A stretch of DNA of 64,000 nt from Opitutia bacterium (GTDB lineage: Bacteria; Verrucomicrobiota; Verrucomicrobiia; Opitutales; Opitutaceae): NCBI GenBank assembly GCA_947472765.1, contig CANJCM010000011.1:1-64000 (forward strand), read 5' to 3'. The translations under genes and the position numbers were made by a program. Below are positions 6,920 through 56,823 of the stretch, in pieces. Position 1 is the stretch's first letter; each line of letters begins with the position of its first letter. The notes under the pieces were generated by a model that was given only the letters and a program-made list of their open reading frames with translations, had not been told where the DNA came from and did not search any database.

Positions 6920-6940
6920 TTGTCATCCATTAGATGACAA
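6920..6940. repeat. solo 21-bp palindrome TTGTCATC-N5-GATGACAA
   Basis: TTGTCATCCATTAGATGACAA. Confidence 0.85.
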
Positions 6941-11221: not shown

Positions 11222-12667
11222 ATGCCCGCCTCCGTCCACGCCGCCGCGATCGATTTGGGAGCCACCAGTGGCCGGGTCATCCTCGGCACCTGGGCGCGAA
11301 ACCGCCTCACGTGGCGCGAGGTGCACCGCTTCCCCAATGCGTTCCGCACGCTCGACGGGCACGACTACTGGGACGTCGGCTCCTTGTGGCAGGAAGTGCA
11401 GGCCGGCCTCCGCCTCGCGGTGGCGGCACTCCCCCGCGGAGCGAAGCTGGCATCCGTCGGCGTCGACACCTGGGGCGTCGACTACGCGCTCGTCAACGAT
11501 GCCGGCCGGCTCGTCTTCCCGGTTCACGCCTATCGCGACAGCCGCACGCAGCCGGGTCTGCAGAAGCTGGCCCGCACCCGGGCCGCGCTCGCCCGCCTCT
11601 ACGCCGCCACCGGCGTGCCCAACGTCTTCTACAATTCGTCGCTGCAACTCGCCGAGGTCGTCGCGGCCTGCCCGGCGATCGAGGATTTGGCGACGCGGTG
11701 CCTGTTCCTGCCCGACTACTTCAACTTCCTCCTCTCGGGCCGGATGGCGAACGAACTCTCGATCGCGAGCACCTCGCAACTGCTCGACGTCCATTCGACG
11801 CAATGGTCCCGCGCGGCGCTCGATTACTTTCGAATCCCGGCGCACTGGTTCACCCCGCCGGTGCCGGCGGGTACGCGGCTCGGACGGGTCCGCGGAATTC
11901 CCGCGCTGGCCGGCACGCAGGTCATCGCCGTGCCAGGCCATGACACCGCCTGCGCCTACGATGCCATGCCCGCCGCGCCCGACGGCACCGATCTTTTCCT
12001 GAGTTCCGGCACGTGGTCGCTGGTGGGTTTCGAAAGCGAAACGCCGGTCCTCGGCGCCGAGGCACTCGCGGCGCGGATTTCCAACGAACGCATCGGCGAC
12101 GGCCGTTACCGTCCGCTCACGAACGTCATTGGACTCTGGATGCTCGAGGGGACATTGAAGGACTTCGCCTCGCGCCCGAACAACGACCGCGAGTGGAACG
12201 CGTTGATCACGGCGGCCGCAAAGCGTCCGGCGCCGGCGCGGTTGCTCGACGTCGCGGATCCCGCGTTTGCCAATCCCCCGTCGATGCGCGCCGCCATCGA
12301 TCGCCAGCTCAAGAAATTCCGGGTGACTCCACCGCGCGACCTCGCCGGGTATGTCCGGTTGATCTGCGACTCGCTCGGCCGCGGCCACGCGGAGGCCATG
12401 CGCAACTTCGAGCGGATGACCGGCCGGCGGTTCAAGCGGATCCTGATCGTCGGCGGTGGTTCGAAGAACCGCCTGCTTTGCCAGGCCACGGCGGATGCGG
12501 CCGGCGTGCCGGTGGTGTCCTTCGCCCTCGAGGGCACCGCCGTCGGCAATCTCGCCAGCCAGTTCATCGCTCTGGGCGCCGTGAAGGATCTGACGACCTT
12601 CCGCCGTCACCTCGGCGCCGGTTTGAAGCAGACCGTGTATGCGCCTGACGGATCCAAACCTGTTTAA
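11222..12667 (+). CDS. rhaB: rhamnulokinase
   Basis: FGGY kinase motifs (AIDLGATSGRVILG, VGVDTWGVDYALV, SSGTWSLVGFE, IVGGGSKN). Confidence 0.9.
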   Translation: MPASVHAAAIDLGATSGRVILGTWARNRLTWREVHRFPNAFRTLDGHDYWDVGSLWQEVQAGLRLAVAALPRGAKLASVGVDTWGVDYALVNDAGRLVFPVHAYRDSRTQPGLQKLARTRAALARLYAATGVPNVFYNSSLQLAEVVAACPAIEDLATRCLFLPDYFNFLLSGRMANELSIASTSQLLDVHSTQWSRAALDYFRIPAHWFTPPVPAGTRLGRVRGIPALAGTQVIAVPGHDTACAYDAMPAAPDGTDLFLSSGTWSLVGFESETPVLGAEALAARISNERIGDGRYRPLTNVIGLWMLEGTLKDFASRPNNDREWNALITAAAKRPAPARLLDVADPAFANPPSMRAAIDRQLKKFRVTPPRDLAGYVRLICDSLGRGHAEAMRNFERMTGRRFKRILIVGGGSKNRLLCQATADAAGVPVVSFALEGTAVGNLASQFIALGAVKDLTTFRRHLGAGLKQTVYAPDGSKPV

Positions 12668-12823
12668 CCACTCATTTTCACTCATCGGACACTAATCCAA
12701 TCCAGGCAGAGGGGGTCCAATCCTTGAACCACTAACTTTCACTAACGGGACACTAACTCGATCCAGTCTGAGTGGTTCGAAGTATTCTCCGAGATTAGTG
12801 ACCGATTAGTGCCAATTAGTGGT
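12648..12823. repeat. CAC-box repeat array between convergent rhaB and oligopeptidase
   Basis: Units such as AACCACTCATTTTCACTCATCGGACACTAAT in both orientations. Confidence 0.8.
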
Positions 12824-14642
12824 TCCCCCGTGCCTTGATCGCCGCTTCGAACGCATCGACTGACTCGCCGCAGCCGGCGATGGCCTGCGCCCAGAATGCC
12901 TTCGTGCCGATGTCCCAGCCGAGCGTCGACTTCACCGCGTCCTCACAGGACGCACTGCCGGTCGCGAGCAGGAACTGCTCGTACTTCGGAAGGAACGACG
13001 CCCCCTCGCGCCGGAACTGCGAGAACAGCGCCTGGCTGAGCAGAAACCCAAACGTGTACGGGAAATTGTAGAACGACACTTCCGCGATGAAGAAGTGGAG
13101 CTTCGACGCCCAGAACCAGGGATCGCGCCCGTGCGGTTCCAGCGCCGGCCCGTAAACCTCGGCCTGCGCCTGCGACATCAGTTCGCAGAGGCGCGACACG
13201 CTCACCACGCCCGCCTTACGCTCCTCGTAAAAGCGCTGCTCAAACAGAAAGCGCACCGGAATGTTCAGCAGATACGCCGGCATGTGGTTCGTCTCCATGT
13301 CGAGGAGGAAGGCCCGGCGCGACGGCGTGAGGCCGGGCGCAGACAGCAGCCCGTGCACGAGAATTTTCTCCGCGAAGGTCGAGGCCGTCTCCGCCAGCGT
13401 CATCGGGTAGTCGCGCGCAATCGGCCGCAGCCCGCCGAGCACATGCGAGTGCCACGCATGGCCGGCTTCGTGCGCGAGGGTCACGACGTCGCCCATCGTG
13501 CCGTTGAAGGTCATGTAAATCCGCTCTTCCCGCGTCAGGGGCGAACCGGTGCAGAACGCGCCGGAGCGTTTGTTGGCGCGCTTTTCCCCCTCGAGCCAGC
13601 GGTCCCGCACACTCTGGCGGAAATACTCGCCGAGCCGCGGATAAGCGGCGTCGAAGGCCGACTGCACCATCGCGATGCCCTCGTCCCATGAAATGTCCGC
13701 AATCGGATCCAGCGGCCGCGGCGCCTCGAGGTCGTACCATTCGAGCGCCTGCGTGCCCTGCAGCCGCGCGCCGATCTGCATGATCCGCCGCGGCAGCGCG
13801 TAGTTCTCGCCGATCGCCGCGAACATCGCATCGAGGGTCGGCTTCGCCAGCGCCGCATCGTGCAATGGAGCATCGAGGAAATGTCCGCGACCGCGCCGTG
13901 CGTACAGCGTGTGCCGCGTGCCGGCGAGGGCGTTGATCGCCGCCGCACAGGTGTCACCCGCCGCGACCCAGACCTTGTTGCCCTCCTCGAACGCGACCTT
14001 CCGGATCGCGCGGTCGGGATTCGTCATCAGCGCGCGGCGTTGCGACATGGGGACGCGTTCGCGGCGTCCATCGGGGAACGTCATCTCGAAACTCATCTTG
14101 CCCGTGACCGTGTCGTAGAGCCGGCTCCACGCCTTGAAGCCGTCGACCCCGAGGTCCGACGCCAGCGCCTCCTGCGCCGCATCCATCTGGTAAACCGCCT
14201 CGGCCCGCAGCCGCCGCAACGCGTGGGCGGCACCGGCGGTCTCCGACGCGGCGAGCAATGCCGCGAAGGCCGTCTCGTCCGCCGGGCGGAGCCCACGGAG
14301 GAGCTGTGATTTCAACTTCGATTCCTCGGCCGCGGCGAGCGACAGCGCCGCCTCCTCGGTCTGATAAGCCTCGTTGGCCGAGTCCGCCGCGCTAAGGCAG
14401 CCGAGATACGAATTGAGATGCCCCATCCGAGTCATCAGCCCTTCCCAGGTCGCAAACGCCCGGGCCCACGCCTGCACGCTTTCCGAAGTCGACTGGAGCG
14501 GCGCGAGCGCGCTGGCCGCGGCGAGCGCAGCCTTGAGGTCGGAATTCAGAGCGGTCCGGAACGCGCGATATTCCGGTCCATCGAAGGTGGGAAAATAGGA
14601 CCGGAGGTCCCAGGTCTGCGGCAAAGGGCGATGCGTCGTCAT
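12816..14642 (-). CDS. M3 family oligoendopeptidase (PepF-like)
   Basis: Zinc motif HEAGHAWHSHVL; M3 C-terminal sequence. Confidence 0.9.
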   Translation of the reverse strand: MTTHRPLPQTWDLRSYFPTFDGPEYRAFRTALNSDLKAALAAASALAPLQSTSESVQAWARAFATWEGLMTRMGHLNSYLGCLSAADSANEAYQTEEAALSLAAAEESKLKSQLLRGLRPADETAFAALLAASETAGAAHALRRLRAEAVYQMDAAQEALASDLGVDGFKAWSRLYDTVTGKMSFEMTFPDGRRERVPMSQRRALMTNPDRAIRKVAFEEGNKVWVAAGDTCAAAINALAGTRHTLYARRGRGHFLDAPLHDAALAKPTLDAMFAAIGENYALPRRIMQIGARLQGTQALEWYDLEAPRPLDPIADISWDEGIAMVQSAFDAAYPRLGEYFRQSVRDRWLEGEKRANKRSGAFCTGSPLTREERIYMTFNGTMGDVVTLAHEAGHAWHSHVLGGLRPIARDYPMTLAETASTFAEKILVHGLLSAPGLTPSRRAFLLDMETNHMPAYLLNIPVRFLFEQRFYEERKAGVVSVSRLCELMSQAQAEVYGPALEPHGRDPWFWASKLHFFIAEVSFYNFPYTFGFLLSQALFSQFRREGASFLPKYEQFLLATGSASCEDAVKSTLGWDIGTKAFWAQAIAGCGESVDAFEAAIKARGNH

Positions 14643-25713: not shown

Positions 25714-25734
25714 TTGTCATCTATCAGATGACAA
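25714..25734. repeat. solo 21-bp palindrome TTGTCATC-N5-GATGACAA
   Basis: TTGTCATCTATCAGATGACAA. Confidence 0.9.
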
Positions 25735-25767: not shown

Positions 25768-25788
25768 TTGTCATCCAATGGATGACAA
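25768..25788. repeat. solo 21-bp palindrome TTGTCATC-N5-GATGACAA
   Basis: TTGTCATCCAATGGATGACAA. Confidence 0.9.
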
Positions 25789-25820: not shown

Positions 25821-25972
25821 TTGTCATCTGATACTTGGATTCCGAAGTTGGCTTCGTAGCCCGCTGCGTGAGCAGCGGGAGGGCTTGAGGCGAAGCGATC
25901 AAGAAGTCCCTGTCCTCACGGACAGGGCCACGCCAATCCGTTTAACTTCGGAATCCAGGTATTGGATGACAA
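25821..25972. repeat. 152-bp composite element (family I doublet inside about 29-bp terminal inverted repeats), copy 1
   Basis: TTGTCATC..TGGATTCCGAAGTT ... CCCGCTGC-GTGA-GCAGCGGG ... CCCTGTCC-TCAC-GGACAGGG ... AACTTCGGAATCCAGGTATTGGATGACAA. Confidence 0.92.
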
Positions 25973-27999: not shown

Positions 28000-28304
28000 G
28001 TGAACCACTAATTGGCGCTAATCGGACGCTAATCCCGGAGCAGAGGACTAACCACTGATTGGCACTGATTGGACACTAATTTCGGAGGAGGGCTCCGAAC
28101 CACGAAGCAACGTTTGGGTTAGTGTCCCGTTAGTGAAAGTGAGTGGTTCAAGGATTGGATCCTCTCCGCCTGGCTCGGGATTAGCGTCCCATCAGCGAAG
28201 ATTAGCGGTTAAACCTGAATCAGCCCCATCAGCGTTACACCCCGATTCGGGGTGAAACGCCCCGCACAGGAAACTTCACTAATCCGCATTAGTGTCCATT
28301 AGTG
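28000..28304. repeat. CAC-box repeat array upstream of recD2
   Basis: AACCACTAATTGGCGCTAATCGGACGCTAAT-type units in both orientations. Confidence 0.8.
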
Positions 28305-33860: not shown

Positions 33861-34445
33861 ATCCAATCCTTGAACCGCTAATTTTCGCGAATGGGCGCTA
33901 ATCCTGACCCAATCTTTGAACCACTAACTTTCACTAACGGGACACTAACTAGGGCCGGACGGATCCAAACCTGTTTAACCACTAATCTTCACTAATCGGA
34001 CACTAATCCAATCCAGCGGAGGGGTTCGATCCCGGAGAGGTGCGACGCGTCGCTCGCTCAGGAATTAGTGTCCAATCAGTGCCAATGAGTGGTTCACCGC
34101 CTTGGTCGGGAGTTAGTGCACCATTAGTGCCCGTTAGTGGTTTTGATCCGGTCCGGATCGGAAGGGTTGAACCACTCATTTTCACTGATTGGACACTCAT
34201 TCGATCCCGCCGGAGAGGGTCCAATCCTTGAACCACTAACTTCCACTAACGGGACACTAACTCGATCGAGTCAGAGTAGTCCGTGGCCTTCTCCAAAATT
34301 AGTGTCCGATGAGTGCCAATCAGTGGTTCCCCCGCCTTGGTCCGAAGTTAGTGCACCGTTAGTGCCCGTTAGTGGTTTTGATCCGGTCCGGGATTAGTTC
34401 CGATTAGTGGTCCCCCCACCGAAATCAGCCTCAATCAGCGGTCCG
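33861..34445. repeat. about 585-bp CAC-box repeat array between divergent genes
   Basis: Many AACCACTAAYTTTCACTAACGGGACACTAACT units and reverse complements. Confidence 0.88.
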
Positions 34446-34553
34446 CCATTCGTCGCTAACCGCTTGGCGCGGCGGCCGGGCCTGTGCATTGTCCCGGCTC
34501 CCAACGCGACTTCTGCTGTCGCCGGTCCGTCTGTTCCGCCACCGCACTTTGCC

Positions 34554-37550
34554 ATGAAACGATTCCTTCCCGTTCCGCTCCTCGTCCTGGCCGCGTTCGT
34601 TCTTCCTGCCTTCGCCGCCGAGCGGCCCAACGTCGCCGGCTTCGAATTCGTCAAGGAGTCCGGCGGCGTCACGGAGTTCAAGCTCACCGCGAACGACCTC
34701 AACGTCCTGCTCCTCGAGGACCACTCCGCCCCGGTGCTCACGTTCATGGTCACCTACCGCGTCGGCTCGCGCAACGAGGTCACCGGCACCACCGGCGCCA
34801 CGCACATCCTCGAACACCTCATGTTCAAGGGCAGCCAGAATTTCCACCCCGGGATCGGCAAGGGCTTCGACACGATGATGGACCAGGTCGGCGGCATCAA
34901 CAACGCCACCACCTCCCTCGACCGCACCAACTACTACGAGAACCTGCCGAGCAACCACCTCGAACTCGCCGTCGCCATGGAGGCCGACCGCATGCGCCAC
35001 CTGCTCCTGCGTGACGAGGATCGGCAGCCGGAGATGACCGTCGTCCGCAACGAATTCGAACGCGGCGAAAACGATCCCGCCGAGGCGCTCGAGAAGGAGA
35101 TCATGTCCACCGCCTTCGTCGCCCACCCGTACCACCACCCGACGATCGGCTGGCGGAGCGACATCGAGAAGGTGTCGATCGCGAAGCTGAAGGAGTTCTA
35201 CGACACATTCTACTGGCCGAATAACGCGACGATCACAGTCATCGGCGACTTCGCCCCCGCCAACGCGCTTCAGCTCATCCAGAAATATTTCGCCGTCATC
35301 CCCCGTGCGCCGCACCCGATTCCCACGATCTACACGGAGGAGCCCGCCCAGACCGGTCCGCGCCGCGTGGTGGTAAAACGGCCCGGTGAGGTCGGCGTCG
35401 TCCAGATCGCCTACAAGACGCCCCGCGCCCTGCATCCCGATCATGCGCCTCTCGAGGTCCTCTCCGTGCTGCTGAGCGAGGGGAAGTCCAGCCGGCTTTA
35501 CCGCGCGCTGATCGACGCCAACCTCGGCATCAGCGCCGACGCCTGGAAGGGCGCGTTTCACGACGACATGCTCTTCTCGCTGAGCTCGATGCTCGCGCCC
35601 GGCGTCGGTCACGAGCAGGTCGAGAAGACGCTCCTCGCCGAGGTCGAGAAGGTGAAGAAGGACGGCGTCACCCCGACCGAGGTCACGCGGGCCATCAATC
35701 AACTGCTAGCCGGCATCGCGTTTCACCGCGACGGGTCCTTCGCGATCGCGGGACAAATCAACGAGGCCATCGCGGTCGGTGACTGGACGAGCTACACCGG
35801 CTTGCTCGAGAAGTTGAAGGTCGTGACCGCCGCCGACATTCAGCGCGTCGCCCGGCAGTACCTCAACGAGGACCAAAGCACGACGGGTTGGTTCATCCCG
35901 CAGGCGGAGCCCGCCGAGCCCGCCAAAGGCCAGGCTAGAAACGCAAAGATGCGCGAAGCGGGAGATGACTCTCTTGGTAGCCCGCTGCGTGAGCAGCGGG
36001 ACGACGTCAGGCTCAGCAGTGAAGAAGTCCCTGCCCTCACGGGCAGGGCTACCCTGGACGAGGGTCGGGATGCCGAACGCCATGCAACAGCTCTGCCGCT
36101 CGGTGGCAGCACGTCGGCCGTCACCTCCGCAATCGCATCGTACTCCGGCGCCGGTCGCTTCCTGCACTACTACCGGGACCCTCGCGGTCAGGATGACTTC
36201 AACGCGCCGCCGACCCGAGGCGCTCCCGCCGCTCTCGCCGCCGCTCCCATCACCGGCGGCGGCAAGGCCGCCACCGGGGCATTGATCGCTCCGCGCGTCC
36301 GTCGCCGCCAGGTCGCAGGCATCGACGTCCTCACGCTCAAGACCGGAATCAAGGACGTCGTGACCATTCGCGGCGTGCTCGGCGCCGGCGATGTTTTCAA
36401 CCTGCCAGGCAACTCCGCCATCGCCGATCTCACCGCGGGCATGTTGGACCAGGGCACGGTCAAACGTGACAAGTTCGCCGTCGCCGCGGTGCTCGAGGAA
36501 ACCGGTGCCACGCTTCGTTTCGGGACCGGCAGCCACACGCTCAACTTCTCCGGCAAAAGCCTGCGCAAGGACCTGCCGCTCGTCGTCGGATTGCTCGCCG
36601 AACAGTTGCGCACGCCGCGGCTCGATGCGGAGGAGTTCGCGAAGCTGAAGACCCAGCTCATCGGCCGGCACAAGCGCGCGATGGACGACACCGACTTCCG
36701 CGCGGGCCGCGAATTCGAGCGCGCCATTTATCCGGAGGGCCACCCGAACCGCCCGCCCGCGAACGAAAAATATCTGGCCGACGTCGAGGCCGCGACGCTC
36801 GACCAGTTGCGCGCTTTCCACGCCGCCAACTACGGCCCGACCGCCGCCCGGCTCGTGATCGTGGGCGATGTCGACGACGCCGCGATCGACGCGGCCATCG
36901 GCGAGGCCTTCGCCGGCTGGAAGGGCGGGCGCCCGATTCCGCCGGCACCGCGCGCTCCGGCCCTCGCCGCTCCCCGCGTCGAAAAGGTCGCGATGCCGGG
37001 CAAGACGAGTGTGTCGCTCACCATCGGGCAACCGTCCGGTCTGCGTTACACCGATCCCGGCTATCAGGCGCTCAACATGGCGACGTCGGTCCTCGGCAGC
37101 GGTTTCTTCTCGGCCCGGCTGCTCGACATCATTCGCAACCGCGAGGGACTCACCTACGGCATCTTCGCCCAGCTCAGCGGCGACACCTACGCTGACGGCG
37201 GCTGGCAAATCTCCGGCACCTTCGCTCCCGACCTGCTGGAGAAGGGTCTCGCCTCCACCCTGCGCGAACTCAACCGCTTCGCCCGCGAAGGCCTGACCGC
37301 CGCGGAACTCACCACGTTCAAGGTCACCCTCACGGGTTCGTACAAAGTCGCCCTCGCGACGACGGACGGCCTCGCCTCGACGCTGCTCAATACCATTCAG
37401 CGCGGGTACGGTCCGGAGTGGGTTGATGAGTTACCCCGCAAGATCGAAGCGCTGTCGCTCGCCGAGGTGAACGCCGCGATCAAGCAGTACCTGAATCCGG
37501 ACAAGATGGTGACGGTCATGGCCGGCACGTTTCCCGAAGCGGGAAAGTAG
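34554..37550 (+). CDS. M16 family zinc peptidase (two-half fused)
   Basis: Inverse zinc motif GATHILEHLMFKG; second M16 half; signal peptide MKRFLPVPLLVLAAFVLPAFAAE. Confidence 0.9.
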   Translation: MKRFLPVPLLVLAAFVLPAFAAERPNVAGFEFVKESGGVTEFKLTANDLNVLLLEDHSAPVLTFMVTYRVGSRNEVTGTTGATHILEHLMFKGSQNFHPGIGKGFDTMMDQVGGINNATTSLDRTNYYENLPSNHLELAVAMEADRMRHLLLRDEDRQPEMTVVRNEFERGENDPAEALEKEIMSTAFVAHPYHHPTIGWRSDIEKVSIAKLKEFYDTFYWPNNATITVIGDFAPANALQLIQKYFAVIPRAPHPIPTIYTEEPAQTGPRRVVVKRPGEVGVVQIAYKTPRALHPDHAPLEVLSVLLSEGKSSRLYRALIDANLGISADAWKGAFHDDMLFSLSSMLAPGVGHEQVEKTLLAEVEKVKKDGVTPTEVTRAINQLLAGIAFHRDGSFAIAGQINEAIAVGDWTSYTGLLEKLKVVTAADIQRVARQYLNEDQSTTGWFIPQAEPAEPAKGQARNAKMREAGDDSLGSPLREQRDDVRLSSEEVPALTGRATLDEGRDAERHATALPLGGSTSAVTSAIASYSGAGRFLHYYRDPRGQDDFNAPPTRGAPAALAAAPITGGGKAATGALIAPRVRRRQVAGIDVLTLKTGIKDVVTIRGVLGAGDVFNLPGNSAIADLTAGMLDQGTVKRDKFAVAAVLEETGATLRFGTGSHTLNFSGKSLRKDLPLVVGLLAEQLRTPRLDAEEFAKLKTQLIGRHKRAMDDTDFRAGREFERAIYPEGHPNRPPANEKYLADVEAATLDQLRAFHAANYGPTAARLVIVGDVDDAAIDAAIGEAFAGWKGGRPIPPAPRAPALAAPRVEKVAMPGKTSVSLTIGQPSGLRYTDPGYQALNMATSVLGSGFFSARLLDIIRNREGLTYGIFAQLSGDTYADGGWQISGTFAPDLLEKGLASTLRELNRFAREGLTAAELTTFKVTLTGSYKVALATTDGLASTLLNTIQRGYGPEWVDELPRKIEALSLAEVNAAIKQYLNPDKMVTVMAGTFPEAGK
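35976..36053. repeat. family I doublet (78 bp) inside the M16 peptidase coding sequence
   Basis: GGTAGCCCGCTGCGTGAGCAGCGGG ... CCCTGCCCTCACGGGCAGGGCTACC. Confidence 0.92.
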
Positions 37551-40232: not shown

Positions 40233-40475
40233 CACTTCCCGAACTCCCCGGCCTTCCTGTTCAAACTCTCTGCGTGGGAAGCTTCGGCCATGCAGCGCAG
40301 CCGCGACCCGGCATCCCCGGTTCGCTCTACCTGCCCCCTTCCATCCGCCGTCACCTCCGGTGCGCATAAAACCCATCACCGACAGGACGAAGCCACCGGG
40401 GCGGTCGTTTGCATGGCCCGCACCTTTTCTCCGACCTTTGATTTCGTCAACACACGTACGGCCTTCGTTACGTTC

Positions 40476-40548
40476 GGGCGCGCACGAGGCGCGCCCCTAC
40501 GAAAGCTGAGAACGCGATCCGTCGTAGGGGCGGGGCTCGTCCACGCCC
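40476..40548. repeat. family E inverted hairpin doublet
   Basis: GGGCGCGCACGAGGCGCGCCCCTACG ... CGTAGGGGCGGGGCTCGTCCACGCCC. Confidence 0.85.
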
Positions 40549-40591
40549 GCTTTGGCCCTTCAGCGAGTCCTACGATTGCGCTCACCCCTAC

Positions 40592-43345: not shown

Positions 43346-43497
43346 TTGTCATCTGTTAAATGGATTCCGAAGTTGATTGGCTCGGCGTGGCCCTGTCCGT
43401 GAGGACAGGGATTTCTCGATCGCTCTGCATGAAGCCGTCCCGCTGCTCACGCAGCGGGCTACGAAGCCGACTTCGGAATTCAGGTGCTAGATGACAA
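43346..43497. repeat. 152-bp composite element, copy 2 (inner doublet reversed)
   Basis: TTGTCATCTGTTAAATGGATTCCGAAGTT ... ACTTCGGAATTCAGGTGCTAGATGACAA. Confidence 0.92.
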
Positions 43498-47945: not shown

Positions 47946-48029
47946 GGCGTGGACGAGTCCCGCCCCTACACCGATTTCGTAGCGCCCGGTCGAACGCCGA
48001 TTTCGCAGGGGCGCGCCTCGTGCGCGCCC
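47946..48029. repeat. family E inverted hairpin doublet
   Basis: GGCGTGGACGAGTCCCGCCCCTAC ... AGGGGCGCGCCTCGTGCGCGCCC. Confidence 0.8.
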
Positions 48030-48065
48030 TCCGCGGCCGGATGGGCACAGAAGTCAGGCCCGACG

Positions 48066-48106
48066 CCGAGCCTCTTCGTCATCTATCAGATGACAAAGAG
48101 GCTCGG
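48066..48106. repeat. extended TTGTCATC-type hairpin with 19-bp arms
   Basis: CCGAGCCTCTTCGTCATCT-atc-AGATGACAAAGAGGCTCGG (one mismatch). Confidence 0.88.
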
Positions 48107-49097: not shown

Positions 49098-49154
49098 CGC
49101 GGAACCTTTCCCCCGGTTGGAGGAATTGTCCAGTCGCCCACCTGCATCGGGCCT

Positions 49155-49306
49155 TCGTCACGTATTACGTGGATTCCGAAGTTGGCCTGGTAGCCCGCTG
49201 CGTGAGCAGCGGGACGGCATGGAGCGCAGCAATGAAGGAGTCCCTGTCCTCACGGACAGGGCCACGCCAATCCGTTTAACTTCGGAATCCAGGTATAACG
49301 TGACGT
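49155..49306. repeat. 152-bp composite element, copy 4 with alternative terminal tips
   Basis: TCGTCACGTATTACGTGGATTCCGAAGTT ... AACTTCGGAATCCAGGTATAACGTGACGT. Confidence 0.9.
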
Positions 49307-49700
49307 GCAAGGATTGGGAAACGGGGCCGCCACGCCGGGGCGACACGGCCCGCAAACCCGGCACGTCACGTAATGCGTTACATTGGGGCCTGGGGGTGCC
49401 GGGACAGGGAAGCGGCCTGGCGTCGTCGCGCGCGGCGTGCGCGGCGGGACTGGCTTAGAGGAGATTAGGTTGAAGGGTAGCCGATCAGAACATAGCGGGC
49501 GCGCACGAGGCGCGCCCCTACGAAATGGGTGTTCGACCGGGCGCTACGAGAGGGGTGCAAGGACGGGCCGGGTAGTGCCGCGTCTCCGACCGGCGAAAGA
49601 ACTGATCTCGCGGCGTTACGGCTTTCGCCAGTCGGAGACCGGCGCCTCGTCACTCTCCTTCTCGCTTGGCTCGTAACGCCTGACTCCGATTCTCGCCTTC

Positions 49701-55249: not shown

Positions 55250-55401
55250 TTGTCATCCAATACTTGGATTCCGAAGTTGGCTTCGTAGCCCGCTGCGTGA
55301 GCAGCGGGACGGCTTTAGGCGAAGCGATCACGAAGTCCCTGTCCTCACGGACAGGGCCACGCCAATCCGTTTAACTTCGGAATCCAGGTAATAGATGACA
55401 A
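55250..55401. repeat. 152-bp composite element, copy 3
   Basis: TTGTCATCCAATACTTGGATTCCGAAGTT ... AACTTCGGAATCCAGGTAATAGATGACAA. Confidence 0.92.
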
Positions 55402-56663: not shown

Positions 56664-56725
56664 AGCAGAGAAATTTCAGCCGACGGGCTGGCGAATGGCG
56701 CCGTTCGGGGAACTGGGCGGACAAC

Positions 56726-56798
56726 GGGCGCGCACGAGGCGCGCCCCTACGAAAGCTGGGAACGTGATCCATCGTAGGGGCGTGGCTCGGGCACGCCC
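56726..56798. repeat. family E inverted hairpin doublet
   Basis: GGGCGCGCACGAGGCGCGCCCCTACG ... CGTAGGGGCGTGGCTCGGGCACGCCC. Confidence 0.85.
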
Positions 56799-56823
56799 GA
56801 AATTCCCATCCACCCACCCCCGC

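Follow-up and report, generated by a model that had tools for sequence, protein, structure and literature searches.

Insertion sequences (IS) of the IS1380 family have ends that begin with CC and generate target duplications of 4-5 bp; in ISEcp1, a member of this family, the ends start with CCTRGATTC and the duplication is 5 bp long. Several other IS, namely IS1397, ISKpn1, ISPsy8, ISPpu9, ISPpu10 and ISRm22, are known to target REP or PU sequences, and the survey of REP-targeting IS published in 2006 lists members of the IS3, IS110, IS4, IS256 and IS5 families, with IS1380 absent (PMC1525189). With regard to the repeats themselves, GTAG repeats have been reported in Opitutus terrae, where GTGG is found in the majority of one family (GTAG-20), and intragenic REPs have been reported for the same organism (PMC3733652).

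The window analyzed here is a stretch of 64,000 nucleotides of contig C11 from a 4.97-Mb draft genome of Opitutia bacterium (hereafter G000). It contains four 152-bp units, at positions 25821-25972, 43346-43497, 49155-49306 (copy 4) and 55250-55401, of which the first, second and fourth have the tips TTGTCATC...GATGACAA. An earlier note on this DNA held that copy 4 carries a different but self-complementary tip, and re-reading the coordinates and sequences of all four units bore this out: the tip is TCGTCACG...CGTGACGT (7/8 paired) or, when the termini are taken as 9 bases long, TCGTCACGT...ACGTGACGT (8/9 complementary, the mismatch being the outermost pair). The same note drew the boundaries of the element at 152 bp, which does not hold, given that the register of the flanking duplication delimits a mobile unit of 126 bp. 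The 152-bp "element" is a composite that consists of a 126-bp MITE and 5-bp direct target duplications, seated in the 5-base loop of a palindrome, and the tip of copy 4 represents the arms of the genomic palindrome that was hit by this non-autonomous transposon, outside the repeat proper (Table 1). We consider it highly probable that the complete account is a 126-bp MITE that entered a dispersed intergenic palindrome at its 5-base loop and duplicated the loop, with a transposase of the IS1380 family as the likely mobilizer.

Table 1. Positions of the MITE copies, their target sites and the uninterrupted palindromes in the window
Feature	Position	Strand	Sequence or context
Solo type-A palindrome	6920..6940	+	
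Solo type-A palindrome	25714..25734	+	same array as the MITE at 25834
Solo type-A palindrome	25768..25788	+	same array as the MITE at 25834; spacers 33 and 32 bp
MITE (copy 1 of the earlier note)	25834..25959	+	flanking 5-mers TGATA/TATTG; type-A arms 25821-25828 and 25965-25972
MITE	43359..43484	-	duplications TGTTA/TGCTA; type-A arms; REP core on the minus strand
Solo type-A palindrome	48076..48096	+	TCGTCATC-TATCA-GATGACAA; overlooked in the earlier note
Left arm of type-B target palindrome, copy 4	49155..49162	+	TCGTCACG
Left target-site duplication, copy 4	49163..49167	+	TATTA; 4/5 match to the right duplication
MITE, copy 4	49168..49293	+	ends CGTGGATTCCGAAGTT ... AACTTCGGAATCCAGG; boundary from the 5-bp direct-duplication register in 68 copies
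REP-dimer (REPIN-like) core of copy 4	49190..49265	+	GTAGCCCGCTGC...GACAGGGCCAC
Right target-site duplication, copy 4	49294..49298	+	TATAA
Right arm of type-B target palindrome, copy 4	49299..49306	+	CGTGACGT; flank runs on as the type-B consensus GCAAGGATTGG
Uninterrupted, degenerate type-B palindrome	49363..49383	+	ACGTCACG-TAATG-CGTTACAT; neighbor of copy 4
MITE	55263..55388	+	duplications CAATA/TAATA; type-A arms

Of 283 candidates from a DNA search of G000, 40 were scored as copies; pattern searches combined with targeted fetches then brought the collection to 81 copies in which both ends are present. Matches with a single end were considered as potential autonomous copies and rejected, as those inspected contain the REP core or a fragment thereof, with the second end decayed. 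All 81 copies carry a CYTGGATTCCGAAGTT-like sequence on both ends as terminal inverted repeats; the element is non-coding and nearly fixed in length at 126 bp, the inner marks being 122 bp apart in nearly all copies. The five bases immediately outside CYTGGATTCC...GGAATCCARG agree directly between the left and right sides in 84, 71, 72, 78 and 69% of 68 copies, and one base to either side of these five the agreement falls to 32%. The overall identity of the flanking 5-mers in the direct register is 254/340 (75%) compared to 155.7 +/- 7.4 (46%) when the right flanks are swapped among copies; in the inverted register, the same five bases show no excess identity in the 68 copies. The excess persists within each tip type (127/160 vs 91 +/- 5 for type A, and 85/100 vs 58 +/- 4 for type B; see below). 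The direct agreement of exactly five bases indicates a 5-bp target-site duplication, which limits the mobile unit to 126 bp and assigns the 8-bp tips to the target. In 30 of the 81 copies, the flanking 5-mers match at three or fewer of the five bases; some of these have unlike flanks, and such copies (e.g., L080) may be recombinants.

The element thus has the hallmarks of bacterial MITEs: it is short (under 300 bp) and non-coding, is present in many copies, and has terminal inverted repeats, a 5-bp target duplication and a likely partner IS with matching ends, found in another member of the genus (G022). Unlike the usual bacterial MITEs, it carries a REP dimer as its interior and targets another repeat family. 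A different reading takes the whole 152-bp unit as mobile, with the tips within the terminal inverted repeats, and implies that the copy-4 subfamily changed both tips by recombination or compensatory mutation. The tips and the element ends indeed form one long imperfect inverted repeat, but the tip is separated from the element by the direct 5-bp duplication, in contradiction to this reading.

Beyond the duplication, the left and right flanks are complementary to each other for 8 bp, and this complementarity continues weakly to about 20 bp. The arms come in two major types, type A, TTGTCATC, which in some copies extends outward as CCCAAGCCCCG, and type B, ACGTCACG, often with the outward extension CCAAACCTTGC. 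Among the 81 copies, 52 could be classified on both sides, with 50 concordant (32 A/A and 18 B/B, including copy 4) and 2 mixed. GTCA-like half-sites are present on both sides in 40 of the 51 copies with 4-5 matches in the duplication, on one side in 10 and on neither side in one, compared to 0.3% (both sides) and 9% (one side) at random positions. From these counts, the target can be described as the dyad GTCAYS-N5-SRTGAC, although a single half-site can suffice, as in GGTCACG-GAGTA-CACAAAG (L310). Accordingly, the tip of copy 4 differs because its landing site was of type B (CGTCACG-N5-CGTGACG), whereas the landing sites of the other three units were of type A (TTGTCATC-N5-GATGACAA). The breakage of the palindrome at one and the same point, the signature of REP-targeting IS, is evident in these well-preserved copies (both half-sites in 40/51, one in 10 more); for the IS itself, this observation comes from one case. 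In another genus member, G004, which is the closest relative that carries the repeat, several MITE copies (L125, L132, L164 and L165) are located in a third type of palindrome, GTAACG-N5-CGTTAC.

In a variant of this account, what guides insertion would be the hairpin or cruciform structure common to all palindromes, and not the GTCA half-sites themselves. Almost all targets are palindromic, with arms that reach about 19 bp, and one insertion (L084) shows an exact duplication in a different palindrome, CTACG-GATCT-CGTAG; however, ten well-duplicated copies, L310 among them, have one half-site only, and we regard guidance by structure as unlikely.

The palindromes are also present in uninterrupted form. 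The window contains three matches to TTGTCATC-N5-GATGACAA (at 6920, 25714 and 25768) vs none in 100 shuffles, and the solo palindromes that the earlier note placed near the elements are indeed there, with type A next to the first unit and type B next to copy 4. Genome-wide, there are 31 exact type-A solos in G000 vs none for a reversed-pattern control, and 62 matches to GTCAYS-N5-SRTGAC vs 2 in the control. Under a stricter loop pattern, solo palindromes were found in 21 of the 27 genus genomes, with 73 in G022 and up to 102 (in G003). Exact matches to the 14 bases of the MITE end number 82 in G000 and 7 in G004; G018 and G039 have a single match apiece, the one in G039 lying inside a coding sequence and being taken as chance. 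Uninterrupted palindromes are present also in genus members that lack the MITE. In G000, the palindromes are often arrayed, with spacers of 31-34 bp, and once the insert and one duplication (131 bp) are subtracted, the spacers of the occupied palindromes are mostly 32-34 bp, similar to those of their uninterrupted neighbors. The expectation that tip type would predict the neighboring solos was borne out in 23 of 25 typed comparisons, but nearly all of these involve type A.

The palindromes are dispersed and, according to rough gene calls, mostly intergenic, and they lack the GTAG tag. A role as terminators between convergent genes was considered and rejected because the orientation of the surrounding genes, as predicted with a rough home-made gene caller, is mixed. 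An Rfam search produced no match at the gathering threshold, and weak matches of palindrome pairs to microRNA families were judged to be chance hairpins. One array (L101, contig C72, 740-1480) has three MITEs in successive palindromes and an exact repeat of one 32-bp spacer, which implies that part of the array arose by tandem duplication (recombination between copies). In G022, palindromes of the form AGTGTCACG-N5-CGTGACACT are paired about 55 bp apart (L195-L208), with GAGGGA or GAGGGC at a nearly fixed place in the spacer in 11 of 11 distinct cases vs 1.9 expected by shuffling; these pairs are often flanked by more palindromes 46 bp away, and the side spacers have no excess of these hexamers (2/17). 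Quite tentatively, we suggest that the palindrome arrays could themselves constitute a conserved intergenic element that has not been described, with a host protein binding to it or an RNA made from it, and that the IS1380 lineage might have specialized on them as safe landing sites, tracking the dyad variants from species to species.

Tip type is barely tied to the lineage of the element. In a tree built from the 81 cores, with few columns and poor resolution, tip type requires 19 changes compared to 20.5 with shuffled labels, and 25 of the 68 core pairs that differ at four or fewer positions carry different tips. Nearest core neighbors share tip type slightly more often than by chance (42/64 vs 32.6, P = 0.017), as the mobility of the entire 152-bp unit would predict; however, the lack of tip-type clustering on the tree and the occurrence of the tips as solo palindromes, including in element-free genomes, speak against that reading. 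The combined pattern fits a tip acquired anew with every insertion, and some local bursts or rearrangement at a later stage.

A search of the genus with the DDE_Tnp_1_4 profile (PF13701) identified, in G022 (L219), a complete 1,498-bp IS with the ends CCTGGATTCCTAAGTT and CCTGGATCCCGAAGT (short form CCTGGATTCC), flanked on both sides by an exact TAATA duplication and by the palindrome arms CACTGTCACG and CGTGACAC; three further palindromes of the same array follow this IS. Its transposase scores 220.1 bits against NF033539 (IS1380), above the curated cut-off of 180, and together with the CCTGGATTCC ends, which start with CCTRGATTC, and the 5-bp duplication, this aligns the element with the IS1380 family, including ISEcp1. 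On the strength of its sequence and its location, this IS is likely to be the autonomous partner of the MITE. It differs from the other IS1380 elements of the genus (L220, L221 and L228), in which 4-5 of the five flanking bases match and the target is not palindromic, in that it targets a palindrome loop. In a class-wide search, the closest relatives of the transposase reached at most 53% identity, and no palindromic target was seen at those of their ends that could be located. In G018 (L307), a 251-bp MITE with similar ends and a different interior is flanked by an exact TAATA duplication within ATGTCACG/CGTGACAT. As this MITE shares the type of ends and target but not the REP core, it is the ends, not the core, that go with the target.

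The presence of an IS and of a MITE with an unrelated interior at the same junction further argues against a mobile 152-bp unit, which we consider highly improbable. Of the two options raised in the earlier note, the first, in which the elements entered the loops of different palindromes that already existed, is favored by the 5-bp duplication, the concerted tips in 50 of 52 copies, the solo palindromes in MITE-free relatives and the IS in the same kind of loop; tip exchange followed by compensatory change is unneeded and does not predict direct duplications.

The sequences show a 5-bp duplication, a palindromic target, covariation of the tips and, at a site of the same type, an IS with matching ends. 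Under the insertion account, the IS1380-family transposase most likely binds the CYTGGATTCC ends and would join the MITE ends 5 bp apart at the dyad of GTCA half-sites, GTCAYS-N5-SRTGAC, so that the five bases of the loop would be duplicated on insertion; a transposase dimer that recognizes the half-sites would set the target, and the IS lineage seen in G022 could have mobilized the MITE in trans. The PF13701 search detected no IS1380 transposase in G000 (a 96% complete draft), and we therefore infer the mobilization step from the single copy in another species.

The core of the MITE consists of two inverted hairpins, tagged GTAG and GTGG, in the arrangement of a REP dimer, as in REPINs. Hence the possibility that the palindromes are of REP type and that the 126-bp insert spread as a REPIN, via RAYT (Y1) transposases acting on the GTAG core and with no involvement of a DDE transposase. 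In line with this scenario, G000 contains 7 Y1_Tnp genes, and a core-only copy that lacks the MITE ends is located at 35973-36052, within a long open frame (34407-37550, plus strand). However, inverted terminal repeats and a fixed 5-bp duplication suit a DDE transposase, and the 251-bp MITE of G018, in which the GTAG core is absent, resembles the 126-bp element in its ends and target. Thus, spread by a RAYT appears very improbable for the MITE, although a RAYT may explain the core-only copies. The core resembles GTAG-tagged REPs and REPINs (PMC3733652, PMC3116915) in its inverted hairpins and in the presence of Y1 transposases in the genome, and differs from them in being the cargo of a MITE with a 5-bp target duplication. 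Other repeats in the window include a family of CACTAATC/CACTCATT units (12643-12830, 28088-28178 and 33954-34391), and one MITE copy (L049) is apparently inserted in a similar sequence, CACTAATG...CATTAGTG. A second REP-dimer-like family, GCGCGCACGAGGCGCGCCCCTACGAAA...TCGTAGGGGCG, is found at 40475-40549, 56725-56799, 47959-48046 and 49480-49567.

Copy 4 has its left tip 57 bp upstream of the start of an ORF that matches the Hsp33 C-terminal domain and for which orthologs at most 79% identical were found in 24 other genus genomes. Among the 19 upstream regions read, which come from relatives too diverged for a decision on the empty site, there was no clear palindrome with a 5-nt loop at the position orthologous to copy 4. 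Upstream of the Hsp33-like gene, where copy 4 is located in our genome (window 49098-49160), G004 and G018 contain TGTCACACGTGTGACA, and G002 contains the similar sequence TGTCACAGGTGTGACA (L254, L262 and L265). The palindrome TGTCACACGTGTGACA, or its one-base variant, is possibly an operator.

The system described here is similar to the REP- and PU-targeting IS in that insertion occurs at one fixed point of dispersed intergenic palindromes, and differs from them in that it involves an IS1380-family element and MITEs that share its ends, and palindromes that form evenly spaced arrays of symmetric GTCA dyads. A search of a body of literature with few subscription journals for IS1380 elements with palindromic or REP targets yielded nothing relevant by title or abstract. 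Targeting of palindromes by IS is known, and an IS1380 member that does so together with its MITEs appears to be new, adding this family to the palindrome-targeting transposases beyond those in the 2006 survey. The locus stacks three layers of repeats, the palindrome, the MITE and the REP core, and cautions that repeat boundaries drawn from inverted repeats can take in the target. Dozens of natural insertions make the target rule readable, and they point to a transposase with an apparently strong choice of target that is open to testing.
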